The notes under the pieces are model-generated. The model saw nothing but the letters and a program-made list of their open reading frames with translations, did not search any database and was not told the origin of the DNA. The position numbers and the translations under genes were made by a program. A stretch of 64,000 nt of DNA from Alkalicella caledoniensis (GTDB lineage: Bacteria > Bacillota > Proteinivoracia > Proteinivoracales > Proteinivoracaceae): positions 1,798,001-1,862,000 of the forward strand of contig NZ_CP058559.1 of assembly GCF_014467015.1 (NCBI RefSeq). Reading direction: 5' to 3'. Every line of letters starts with the position of its first letter. Position 1 is the stretch's first letter. Below are positions 45,572 through 51,124 of the stretch, in pieces.

Positions 45572-45864
45572 AATAACACCACCTTTTTTAGGGGTATTAT
45601 TTCCCTTATTGTTACTTATTATACACTATAATAACAAAGTATATTTAAAGAAATCTAATAGGCTAAAAACATTAGATAAAAAAGCGCTTCTATTATATAT
45701 ACACTAAATTTTATCTAATGTGCATGAATATATTTTTGACGATTTTTTGACGAAACATAAAAAGACCTCACCATTTTGAATGGCGGGGTCTTAGCTATCT
45801 GTATTTTCTATTTCTACCAGATAATAAAAAAGTTATATTTTAGCAAAATATTCCTATAATATAC
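45572..45864. other. Gene-free 290-base stretch at prophage/core boundary
   Basis: No open frame of note. It holds a 13-bp inverted repeat, ACATTAGATAAAA (45669-45681) and its complement (45709-45721); a direct repeat of TTTTTGACGA (about 45733-45753); and a hairpin GACCTCACC/GGCGGGGTC (45757-45794). These are candidates for regulatory or attachment-site elements but none is proven. Confidence 0.6.
45757..45794. terminator. Terminator-like hairpin at boundary
   Basis: AAGACCTCACCATT / AATGGCGGGGTCTT pair with a short loop (with G-T/mismatch). An A5 run precedes it, so on the minus strand it would end in T5, as if ending a minus-strand transcript from the right. Confidence 0.65.
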
Positions 45865-46231: not shown

Positions 46232-46438
46232 ATGGAATACAGTTTTAGGTCTAAGGAAGAATTATTGAACTTCATCGCCGCTGAGGTAATAACAACAACA
46301 GAGGCCTTAGAAATTCTAGGCTGTTCAAGGCAGTATATTGGGCAACTGGTAAAGGATGAAAAACTAATTCCTATTAAAAGAATGCATAACGCTTCCTTGT
46401 TCTTAAGGTCAGATGTGGCAATGTTTAAAAGAAAATGA
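46232..46438 (+). CDS. Excisionase-type helix-turn-helix protein
   Basis: A 68-residue protein. The segment ITTTEALEILGCSRQYIGQLVKDEKLIPIKRMHNASLFLRSDV is a winged helix of the excisionase/MerR-like HTH_17 type that recognises DNA in mobile elements. ATG with AGGAGGAAATAG. It is followed by a terminator hairpin. Its position at the prophage edge fits a recombination or regulatory role, which is inference. Confidence 0.75.
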   Translation: MEYSFRSKEELLNFIAAEVITTTEALEILGCSRQYIGQLVKDEKLIPIKRMHNASLFLRSDVAMFKRK

Positions 46439-46659: not shown

Positions 46660-47433
46660 TTACCTATCAATACCCTTTAGCCCTCTTAATACCACAAACA
46701 TTTGTTCCAGGTCGCTGCTTGTAAGTTCATCAAATTTATCTAATTTGTTTTTAATATCTGTAATTACTTCTTTCTCGTAGCTAATAGGTTTTTTTCCTTC
46801 GTTAAGAAAAAAAGTGGCAATAGTACCTGTTAGCATACCAATAAAGCCAATACCTACAAGCATTAATGTGCCTGCCACTATTCTACCTCCAAAACTTACT
46901 GGTGATATATCTCCATACCCTACTGTAGTTGTTGTAACAAATGCCCACCATATGGCATCAAGAAAATTGATATCCTCAAAGAATTTTATACATACGGAAC
47001 CTAAAACAACAATCACAATAGTAATAAAAATAATATAAATAAGACCGTTAGTTTTTATAAATATGAGAAACTTATCTTTAAACCGAGTTAACCATGCCAC
47101 TGACCTAAGAACTCTATTAAACCTACTAAGCCTAGCTAACCTTACTAGCCTTGCTAGCCTAAATACTCTAAAAATAGATGAAAAAGGAATAATGGAAATA
47201 AGCTCTGCTTTATTGCTCAGAACATACCTTTTCTTATTTTCTGCCATGAACAGCTTTATAGAGTAGTCAGCAATAAATATAGCTAAAATGAAGGTATCAA
47301 TCTTTTCAATAAATAAAGCCGTTGTTTCCGGCAAATCAAAAATAATTTCCCCAATTAACATAGATACAACTATTAACGCTAGAATAACCATGGTATATTC
47401 ATAAATAATATATAATTTAGTTTTATCTATCAT
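46660..47433 (-). CDS. Voltage-gated potassium channel protein
   Basis: About 257 residues with six membrane segments. The S4 voltage sensor is arginine-rich (R-x2-R-x2-R: RVFRLARLVRLARLSR) and the pore filter is TTTTVGYGDISP, diagnostic of K+ selectivity. A short cytosolic tail follows. The start is uncertain: ATG 47433 has GGGGGG 15 bases upstream, while an in-frame ATA (47440-47442) is ideally spaced at 6 bases. The gene sits between the HTH gene and a broken XRE regulator. It may be host or phage cargo. Confidence 0.85.
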   Translation of the reverse strand: MIDKTKLYIIYEYTMVILALIVVSMLIGEIIFDLPETTALFIEKIDTFILAIFIADYSIKLFMAENKKRYVLSNKAELISIIPFSSIFRVFRLARLVRLARLSRFNRVLRSVAWLTRFKDKFLIFIKTNGLIYIIFITIVIVVLGSVCIKFFEDINFLDAIWWAFVTTTTVGYGDISPVSFGGRIVAGTLMLVGIGFIGMLTGTIATFFLNEGKKPISYEKEVITDIKNKLDKFDELTSSDLEQMFVVLRGLKGIDR

Positions 47434-47529
47434 CTTATTTATTGTAATCCCCCCATCCTGCATCTCTAATTTTTTCTTTTTAGTCCCAGCTATAATAACA
47501 TAACTAGCACCAGGACTTTTTAAGAAATT

Positions 47530-47821: not shown

Positions 47822-47857
47822 AATATAAATCCTATGCTCTATATGCATAGGATTTGG
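47822..47857 (-). terminator. Perfect 11-bp hairpin terminator candidate
   Basis: AAATCCTATGC / GCATAGGATTT around TATAGA-like loop, then ATATTTTTATC on the minus strand. It lies about 90 bases after the 386-codon membrane-protein gene, with a possible promoter in between. Confidence 0.6.
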
Positions 47858-47947
47858 TACCGTATTATATCACGAACCGGGGTACCGCGGTCGATATATG
47901 TATCTTTAAATATAAACTACAATATTTTTTTAATTTTGTCAAGTTTT

Positions 47948-49039
47948 TTAAGCTTTTTTTTCAATTTTCATATGTACGCTTATGCCATCATATGTTTCCC
48001 CACTAACTCTCTTACCAACATATGATAGCTCTTTTTTAAATTTTATTTTATATGTTTTCTTAAAATGTTTTACATACTCCATTTTATCTAACTCTCTTGA
48101 TACCATTCTAACGATCCTAATCTTTTGATCTCTTCCAAAAAGATATATGCTGCTTGTCCCCTTTGCTAAGTGCATTTTTAGTCTTTCTATATAAACACTC
48201 TCACCAAAATTTTCATAAGTATCCCACTTAGCTACCAGCATTATCCCTACCTTGTAGTAGTTACCATTAAATGCTAACTGCGTAGAATTATCTCCATTTT
48301 TTCTTACCGCTATTTGATATAAGAAGTCTATAAATTCCTTAGTTTCAATTATAAAACCACTATTATCTATTTTCCCAAACACCTGGTTGCTTTTTTCTTT
48401 TAGTTCTCGTAGCATAATTTGGACAAACATGCCATTATCATCCAGGTTAGAAAGCTTATTAATTGAATCCTTAAGTTCTTCATCATCCTCCATTTCTTTT
48501 GACAAAACTCCCTGAAAAAAATATGAAACACCTTCCTCATATGTAGACATTAGAAGTTTTCTTGTCATGATTAAACAAGAGGATTTAAAAATATTGTTAT
48601 CTATACAGTGCCGTTCTTTCGTTAAAAGTCCGTTTTCTACGAAATCGCTTAGTGCGTGTACTATTGTATGCATTTTATTCCGCTTATTGTCTACACATAC
48701 AACCACATTATTGTCCTGCAAAAAAGCTTCCCTATCTGTTTTAGTAACCCACTGAATTTTTAAATCATAAGGTAAAATATCAGCTATTTCCTTAGTAGCT
48801 TCTTTAGAAGCCTTTAAAATATTAGCGTTTACATAGCTCTCAATCTGTTTCCGCTTAACAGAAGTGCCTATCCATGTAAACATGCTCAAAAAACAAGCCC
48901 TGAATCTCATTAACACTTCAGGCTTGAAAATAACTAAATATAGAAATAATACACTTATTCCTATTATTAACGGCAACCCTGATATCCAGTCTTTATAGTT
49001 CTTAAAATCTTCAAAACTAACTAGTGCTATCACCATCTC
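47948..49039 (-). CDS. Unrecognised membrane protein, prophage accessory candidate
   Basis: About 363 residues. I do not recognise a family. A strong membrane helix (SGLPLIIGISVLFLYLVIF) and possibly a second, weaker one near the N-terminus are followed by about 290 soluble residues rich in Lys, Asp and Glu. No catalytic motif such as HExxH, Walker A or DxD was seen. The frame is open to an ATG at 49108, but that region overlaps the preceding gene; ATG 49039 has AG-rich upstream sites (GAGGGGAG, 11 bases; AGAGGAG beside it). It overlaps the zinc-ribbon gene by 23 bases, so they form one unit. Confidence 0.7.
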   Translation of the reverse strand, partial: EMVIALVSFEDFKNYKDWISGLPLIIGISVLFLYLVIFKPEVLMRFRACFLSMFTWIGTSVKRKQIESYVNANILKASKEATKEIADILPYDLKIQWVTKTDREAFLQDNNVVVCVDNKRNKMHTIVHALSDFVENGLLTKERHCIDNNIFKSSCLIMTRKLLMSTYEEGVSYFFQGVLSKEMEDDEELKDSINKLSNLDDNGMFVQIMLRELKEKSNQVFGKIDNSGFIIETKEFIDFLYQIAVRKNGDNSTQLAFNGNYYKVGIMLVAKWDTYENFGESVYIERLKMHLAKGTSSIYLFGRDQKIRIVRMVSRELDKMEYVKHFKKTYKIKFKKELSYVGKRVSGETYDGISVHMKIEKKA

Positions 49040-49328
49040 CTCTACTACTCCCCTCGATAAGTAGTTTATAACACTTAGTAGAATTACAACAGTAAGCAAC
49101 TTCTCCATCTAGTGGAAAAACTGATTGTATATTATCAAGTGTTATAATTTCACCACAGAATTGACACTTCATTGTACCTGCTATTACTTTGTCATACTCA
49201 CCAAGAGACTGGAGAAAATTTACAAGATCATCATCATGGACAGCTTTAATTTCTCCCCTTTTCATAAGCGTAACCTCCTGACTCCTTAATTTTTCAATAA
49301 TAGCATTATTTAGTACTGATTTTATCAT
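49017..49328 (-). CDS. Small zinc-ribbon protein, partner of membrane protein
   Basis: A 103-residue protein. N-terminal helical part, then C-x2-C (KCQFCGEI) and CC-x4-C (YCCNSTKCY), a likely zinc ribbon. No enzyme motif. ATG 49328 is preferred, with GTGGGGG 5 bases upstream; a GTG at 49340 overlaps this site. The stop lies inside the start region of the membrane-protein gene, suggesting coupled translation. It is not a known phage structural or lysis gene. Confidence 0.7.
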   Translation of the reverse strand: MIKSVLNNAIIEKLRSQEVTLMKRGEIKAVHDDDLVNFLQSLGEYDKVIAGTMKCQFCGEIITLDNIQSVFPLDGEVAYCCNSTKCYKLLIEGSSRGDGDSTS

Positions 49329-49446: not shown

Positions 49447-49480
49447 AATCAAAAAAGACCCCACCCAATAAGGTGAGGTC
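49447..49480 (-). terminator. Terminator after the endolysin gene
   Basis: GACCTCACC / GGTGGGGTC (one G-T pair) with TTATTG loop then T6 on the minus strand; end of phage late operon. Confidence 0.8.
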
Positions 49481-49490
49481 AATTTATATG

Positions 49491-50378
49491 CTAGTATTTT
49501 CTAGGGTTGTCCCAGTATCCATCTCCACGGACGCCGCTTCCTGCTTTGTTTATTTGATAGTGAATATGTGGGCCAGTAGCATTCCCTGTAGCTCCCACAC
49601 CACCAATTACAGTTTTTCCTGCGACTATCCTGTCTCCTACTTTTACAACTACCTTAGACATGTGGCCAATAAGGTGAGTTAGGCCTCGCTCACATCTTAC
49701 TCCTACCAAATAACCCCAGCCACTAAACCATTGAGCATATACCACTTCCCCATCCACCGGCATAGTGATAGGGTATCCATTGGGCTTTCCTCCAAAGTCT
49801 ATTCCTCCGTGGAATGAATTTTTAACACCTGTTATAGGGTGTGTGCGATATCCATAATCAGACGTTAACCTATACCCTTGGTCTAGATAGAACTTAACTA
49901 TATCTACACCTGTCGAACCTTCGGAAGGAATGTTTAAGCTAGAGCCTATCTGTAGCTCTCTAGCTTTCACTCCTGGATTCAACTTTTCTAGCTCTGCAAC
50001 AGTGGTATTATATTTCTTGGCCAAGTCCCAAAGAGTATCTTTTCTTTCTATCTTATGCACTCTTGTTTCAACCTGTGGAGGCACAGGGCCTTCTCCTGGT
50101 ATGATTAGCTTATCTTTAGGGTATATGGTATACGGTTCTTTAATGTTATTGACCTCAGCTATTTCCTTCCAATTTACTCCTAGCTTTTGACCTATTTTGT
50201 ATAGGCTATCATTAGGCTGAACTACATATTCATTTTCGTGGATCTTGATTTGTTGGCCAATGTAGATAAGATCTTTATTTGCTATTTCTGGGTTGAGCCT
50301 CATCAAGGCCTCAATAGTAGTTTTATGCCTTGATGCTATTACACCTAAACTGTCACCTTTCTGGACTGTGTATATCAT
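49491..50378 (-). CDS. Phage endolysin: triple LysM plus M23 endopeptidase
   Basis: A 295-residue lysin. Three LysM units (about 1-46, 50-95, 107-152), an uncommon N-terminal wall-binding array for an endolysin, precede an M23 peptidase with zinc ligands HGGIDFGG and HIHYQI (GNATGPHIHYQ) and GMSKV-like loop. It cuts peptidoglycan stem peptides at lysis. No signal peptide, so release depends on the holin. ATG with GGGGGAGTTCAATA; it abuts the holin stop. Confidence 0.94.
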   Translation of the reverse strand: MIYTVQKGDSLGVIASRHKTTIEALMRLNPEIANKDLIYIGQQIKIHENEYVVQPNDSLYKIGQKLGVNWKEIAEVNNIKEPYTIYPKDKLIIPGEGPVPPQVETRVHKIERKDTLWDLAKKYNTTVAELEKLNPGVKARELQIGSSLNIPSEGSTGVDIVKFYLDQGYRLTSDYGYRTHPITGVKNSFHGGIDFGGKPNGYPITMPVDGEVVYAQWFSGWGYLVGVRCERGLTHLIGHMSKVVVKVGDRIVAGKTVIGGVGATGNATGPHIHYQINKAGSGVRGDGYWDNPRKY

Positions 50379-50857: not shown

Positions 50858-51124
50858 TTATTTAATTCCTAATAAGTAATTTTGCAAAGCTTCAACATCT
50901 TTCTCGTTGACATACCCATCACCGTTAAAGTCAGCTAGTTGCAAATCTTTATTAGGTATTTCCTCTAGCCCTAAAACATGTTTTTGTATTATCAATAAAT
51001 CTAGTATTGTTATCTCTCCGTCCTTACTTATATCCCCAATTTCATATTTTTCCGGAATGACTACGATAACAAGGACGGCCAATAATAATACTGCCAAAAA
51101 GATCATAACAGCCTTTTTCTTCAT
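50858..51124 (-). CDS. Membrane-anchored dockerin-domain protein
   Basis: An 88-residue protein: N-terminal hydrophobic anchor (about residues 4-22), then a type I dockerin with two calcium loops, DISKDGEITILD and DFNGDGYVNEKD, each followed by a helix (LLIIQKHVLGL, VEALQNYLLGI). Dockerins bind cohesins in cellulosome-like complexes. No cohesin or glycoside hydrolase gene is in the window. ATG with GGAGGTGTTGTA. It sits between the DUF1617-like and holin genes in the late phage operon, and its role is unknown. Confidence 0.85.
   Translation of the reverse strand: MKKKAVMIFLAVLLLAVLVIVVIPEKYEIGDISKDGEITILDLLIIQKHVLGLEEIPNKDLQLADFNGDGYVNEKDVEALQNYLLGIK

Follow-up and report, generated by a model that had tools for sequence, protein, structure and literature searches.

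The two-gene set RexAB of lambda combines a soluble with a membrane protein, and RexB is polytopic. Morons are accessory units able to be expressed in a lysogen, examples of which are given in PMC7067206, and prophage defence genes active in lysogeny are known, such as Tha of staphylococcal phages (PMC11087260). Here we describe a pair of overlapping genes in a 64,000-nucleotide stretch of the Alkalicella caledoniensis genome (contig NZ_CP058559.1, positions 1,798,001 to 1,862,000 of the forward strand; hereafter the window, in whose coordinates positions are given). Like prophage morons such as rexAB and bstA (PMC7067206), the pair is an autonomous, AT-rich cassette, set off from the late genes by terminators and variably present among phages, but neither of its proteins is related in sequence to any characterised moron found. 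With the superinfection-exclusion proteins RexAB and Ltp, the latter from Streptococcus thermophilus phages (PMC3952083), it shares a prophage location and membrane association, but no homology. Moreover, Ltp is a surface lipoprotein, whereas the product of the second gene crosses the membrane once and has a large domain that probably lies in the cytosol.

Gene 1 (49017..49328, minus strand) encodes a protein of 103 aa whose translation contains the cysteines C55-x2-C58 and C81-x4-C86. In an alignment of seven zinc-ribbon relatives, C55, C58, C81 and C86 are invariant, as is the Asp-Leu of a D-x-D-L-like motif. The protein had been described as carrying a C-x2-C/CC-x4-C pattern; its CxxC and its last two cysteines are indeed conserved, but the first cysteine of the "CC", C80, is not. 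The protein is best read as a small cytosolic four-cysteine zinc ribbon with predicted zinc binding. Both gene 1 and gene 2 are present as single copies in the genome. Several other candidates for zinc-ribbon relatives were rejected: a profile match in G253 (E 1.6e-4) lies within an open reading frame that reads as a HAD-type hydrolase, one in G046 (E 0.009) lies inside a 461-codon open frame, L036, retrieved by a motif scan, has an E-value of 0.011 and lacks the partner gene, and four loci retrieved by a KAVHDDDL scan (L017, L018, L019 and L021) do not match the zinc-ribbon profile.

Gene 2 (47948..49036, minus strand) most likely starts at the ATG at 49036, giving a protein of 362 aa. One or two transmembrane helices had been proposed for it, of which one is supported: hydropathy reveals a single strongly hydrophobic helix at residues of about 17-38, which is conserved among the relatives. 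A second helix would exist only if translation began at the upstream ATG at 49108; as this codon lies within gene 1 and the resulting extension is missing from every relative, the two-helix form was rejected and the 362-aa form adopted. The single pass distinguishes the protein from the polytopic RexB. The soluble remainder comprises about 290-300 residues and, judging from charge, is predicted to be cytosolic, with the N-terminal helix as its anchor. The middle domain has no known relatives; P-x-D-x-K is invariant in the alignment of six membrane-protein relatives, and no catalytic motif was recognised.

Homologous pairs were found at no fewer than five other loci: a prophage of Carboxydothermus islandicus (L003), where the pair lies behind holin and amidase genes; Marinitoga camini virus 1 (KP836355), where it corresponds to UF08_10/UF08_11 ahead of the terminase; two metagenomic phage contigs, where it lies beside terminase genes; and a Bacillota MAG contig (L013), where it adjoins an N6-adenine methylase gene, identified by eye. 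The preliminary description had named absence from any other mobile element as an outcome that would speak against phage cargo, and the survey instead places the pair in unrelated phages and prophages. A seventh zinc-ribbon gene (G228) stands alone after an amidase-like gene and a holin gene, at the end of a prophage contig. Pairing was counted in the six loci where both genes are visible (the window, L003, L004, L005, L008 and L013); the genes are linked in all six, and five of these have a phage or prophage context. Identity to the window membrane protein is about 28-32% in the relatives and 23% in Marinitoga, and a profile from which the Marinitoga protein was left out recovers it at an E-value of 4e-28. 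UF08_10/UF08_11 are a true family pair, sharing the gene order, a 1-nt overlap, the transmembrane helix and the four cysteines, but they are annotated only as hypothetical proteins and differ from the window pair in their position before the terminase and in having their own predicted promoter and two terminators. A protein in BFVD, A0A8S5TTG3 of Siphoviridae sp. ct5jB2, is a probable further member, aligning over 280 columns at 32% identity. The family spans two bacterial phyla and is rare: it was detected in three of 398 genomes sampled from the phylum (the window's own counted), in two of 397 genomes of a second sample that overlaps the first, and in a single record among 50,697 from phages; metagenomes may hold more members.

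The frames of the two window genes overlap by 20 nt (49017..49036, minus strand), and overlaps of 8 (L003), 1 (L005), 1 (L004), 20 (L008) and 4 nt (L013) occur in the other loci. Since homologous pairs with overlapping frames recur in five other loci, the arrangement goes beyond chance, and since the overlap is found in all six pairs, translation of the two genes is likely to be coupled and a joint product is suggested. A small soluble protein encoded first, a membrane protein encoded second in an overlapping frame, and carriage by a prophage would also suit a toxin-antitoxin pair or a RexAB-like abortive-infection pair, in which the zinc ribbon would sense infection and control a harmful membrane protein. 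Nevertheless, a protein with a single N-terminal anchor helix and a soluble domain of about 290 aa does not look like a pore, no toxin family was matched, and the sequences are related to no listed system, so that we consider such a pair very unlikely.

The prophage is bounded on the left by attL, a 25-bp direct repeat at 45731..45755, whose partner, located behind the integrase, occupies window-coordinate 84307-84331. The two copies are identical at 24 of 25 positions, and 60 controls reach at most 20 of 25; no longer exact att repeats were found, the bounding pair being the 25-bp repeat with its one mismatch. Directly before the second copy, an open frame at 83203-84292 fits a tyrosine integrase by length, position and N-terminal sequence, as judged by eye. 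The host-side neighbours are the gene for Gin, the sigma-G inhibitor, on the left and, on the right, an open frame that by eye looks like guaB. Because the att copies enclose it, the pair lies inside the prophage, with phage genes on one side of it. From the structural genes one passes the endolysin gene, a terminator, the pair, a second terminator, the ion channel gene and the xis-like gene before reaching attL, and the pair is located outside the late operon. An intrinsic-terminator-like hairpin (49457..49480, minus strand) comes immediately after the endolysin gene, whose stop is at 49491, and a second terminator-like hairpin (47827..47855, minus strand) lies downstream of the pair; these hairpins, both recognised as matches to the terminator consensus only, set the pair apart from the late operon. 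The late-operon terminator reported earlier was thus located, and the moron-like position just outside it agrees with the att repeats, the phage genes and the hairpins.

Several neighbouring genes were characterised in passing. Between the pair and attL, inside the prophage, 46660-47463 (minus strand) encodes a voltage-gated-type potassium channel (Ion_trans, Ion_trans_2) that falls into PHROG 7872; its relatives occur in phages of Listeria, Enterococcus and Lactobacillus, pointing to a recurrent phage-borne ion channel. An excisionase-like gene (46232-46438, plus strand; PHROG 4691, E 2e-24) is situated at the attL end, and about 38 kb separate it from the integrase at the opposite end; phage genes named excisionase can have other roles, for example inhibiting a defence protein of a prophage (PMC11087260). 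The endolysin (49491-50378, minus strand) consists of three LysM domains followed by a peptidase M23 domain, and a small protein encoded next to the holin gene (50858-51124, minus strand) combines an N-terminal hydrophobic segment with a type I dockerin domain, which is odd for a phage. The gap between pair and channel gene (47827-47945, minus strand) contains a promoter-like stretch with TTGACA, then a GC-rich hairpin and the terminator, and possibly encodes a small RNA; its fold z-score of -2.97 stems largely from the terminator, and the promoter consensus scan scored none there.

A similar cassette anatomy is seen in the relatives. In each of the seven loci measured, the pair has a lower G+C content than the sequence around it, the window values being 0.321 for the pair and 0.371 for the late genes. 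In Carboxydothermus, a terminator-like hairpin upstream of the pair (5589-5608 of L003) separates it from the lysis genes, and in Marinitoga camini virus 1 hairpins are visible by eye on both sides. In Marinitoga camini virus 1, a sigma-70-like promoter matching 11 of 12 positions precedes gene 1 by 30 nt, and a 9 of 12 match is present in L013; the promoter consensus scan gave no clear match for the pair in the window, L003 or L005. Gene neighbours differ, with lysis genes upstream in the window and in Carboxydothermus, and terminase genes near L004, L005 and L008, which are Marinitoga camini virus 1 and the two metagenomic phage contigs. Given the terminator-like hairpins, the AT-richness, the variable neighbours and the recurrence of the overlapping pair in viruses of distantly related bacteria, the pair is well supported as a real, rare and self-contained prophage cargo (moron) cassette.

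The same neighbourhoods bear on a role in the phage cycle itself, either as a membrane tether for phage DNA during replication or packaging, or as a lysis-timing factor, expressed late in both cases. Such a role would account for the lysis genes next to the pair in the window and in Carboxydothermus and next to the zinc ribbon of G228, for the terminase genes near the three phage loci, and for the combination of a membrane anchor with a predicted nucleic-acid-binding fold (see below). However, terminators stand between the pair and the lysis genes, the location differs among phages, the family is too rare for a core function at the frequencies given above for phage records and for the first genome draw, and the Marinitoga pair has its own predicted promoter. 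The reading as a part of the lysis machinery was downgraded on account of the terminators, the varied location and the rarity, and we regard a phage-cycle role as quite unlikely overall.

Searches of Pfam, NCBIfam, PADLOC and PHROGs revealed no convincing family for either protein or its relatives, in line with the earlier statement that neither could be assigned, and homology to a host housekeeping family, which was looked for as a refutation of the cargo reading, was absent. The two-gene family is contained in none of these four libraries. No match to the PADLOC defence library was obtained for the window pair at E-values up to 10; among the relatives there was one, HerA at E 0.019, judged to be at chance level. 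Sequence matches to solved structures (viral fusion proteins, Trm112, eL24 and TFIIE) had E-values of 0.1 or worse and were likewise judged to be chance.

By structure prediction, gene 2 ends in an Alba-like domain (about 48280-47951, minus strand). AlphaFold models of the family were built from only five usable sequences, and the model of the window protein (mean pLDDT 49.5) is too poor for use alone. The soluble part of the Carboxydothermus relative has a mean pLDDT of 51.7 overall; its last ~90 residues reach about 68-89, lower at the extreme end, and form a beta-alpha-beta-alpha-beta-beta arrangement. A Foldseek search of the PDB with this tail returned Alba and SpoVS proteins almost exclusively in the first two dozen matches, with probabilities mostly of 0.97-1.0, E-values from 9e-4 and TM-scores by target of about 0.4-0.66, most of them at 0.5-0.66. 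The weaker window model has the same strand-helix order, and its top match is Sso10b2 (E 0.16), with many acetyltransferases mixed in. The predicted domain thus resembles the Alba/SpoVS proteins (PF01918; PDB 1nfh, 1udv, 2eh1) in its fold, but gene 2 shows no sequence or profile similarity to them, and here the domain forms the tail of a membrane-anchored protein of ~360 aa. Specifically, the gene 2 family did not match PF01918, a profile of its C-terminal domain found no Alba chain, and hhalign of this domain against Alba scored 12.0, below shuffled-column controls of up to 15.9, so that homology to Alba finds no support in sequence. The fold comparison suggested in the preliminary description gave a match at the level of structure for the Carboxydothermus tail, but not at the level of profiles. 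Since fold searches match while sequence and profiles do not, it is fair to call the modelled tail Alba-like by predicted fold, but not to call gene 2 an Alba family member. Through this predicted fold, the protein is probably nucleic-acid-binding. Neither the libraries nor the literature searched describe a two-gene unit that includes a membrane-anchored protein of Alba-like fold.

What the cassette does for the lysogen can be approached from these features. We tentatively favour, at somewhat less than an even chance, a membrane-tethered complex of this cargo operon that would block superinfecting phage by engaging nucleic acid. In the lysogen, the operon would be transcribed independently of the late genes; the two products, whose translation the overlapping frames would couple, would probably assemble into one complex on the inner side of the membrane; the tethered complex would engage incoming phage nucleic acid at the envelope; and establishment of the phage would thereby be blocked, resulting in superinfection exclusion. 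Exclusion fits best because the protein is anchored in the membrane, probably binds nucleic acid, has a zinc-ribbon partner, is prophage-borne and in one case lies beside a gene of restriction-modification type. Against exclusion stand the failure of both proteins to match any known defence protein, an Alba resemblance seen in fold but not in sequence and weak for the window protein itself, the lack of a clear consensus promoter in the window, and the lack of a recognised catalytic motif. The one restriction-modification case is L013, the only such one among the relatives, whose methylase, judged by eye, resembles a modification subunit of type I restriction. On the same MAG contig (427-3099 of L013), the pair stands beside the methylase gene and a second open reading frame that is maybe endonuclease-like, also read by eye, possibly forming a small defence cluster.

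The terminators, overlap and AT-richness also fit a lysogenic conversion that is not antiviral, in which the complex would alter host physiology, such as envelope stress or membrane-tethered gene regulation, and raise the fitness of the lysogen. Non-defence morons of diverse function are common (PMC7067206), and no defence family was matched in PADLOC; however, no host homologue points to a host pathway, and rarity together with a spread over two phyla fits a general function that is less tied to a single host. We therefore rate lysogenic conversion of this kind as somewhat unlikely.

A more specific form of the exclusion reading, which we consider unlikely as it stands, is a prophage immunity module in which an inner-membrane-tethered Alba-fold domain and its dedicated zinc-ribbon partner would catch incoming phage DNA or RNA at entry. 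The two genes of this family are linked across two phyla and are borne by phages or prophages in all but one case, and if the membrane-tethered Alba-like reading is true, a nucleic-acid-binding domain would be unusually placed where phage genomes enter the cell.
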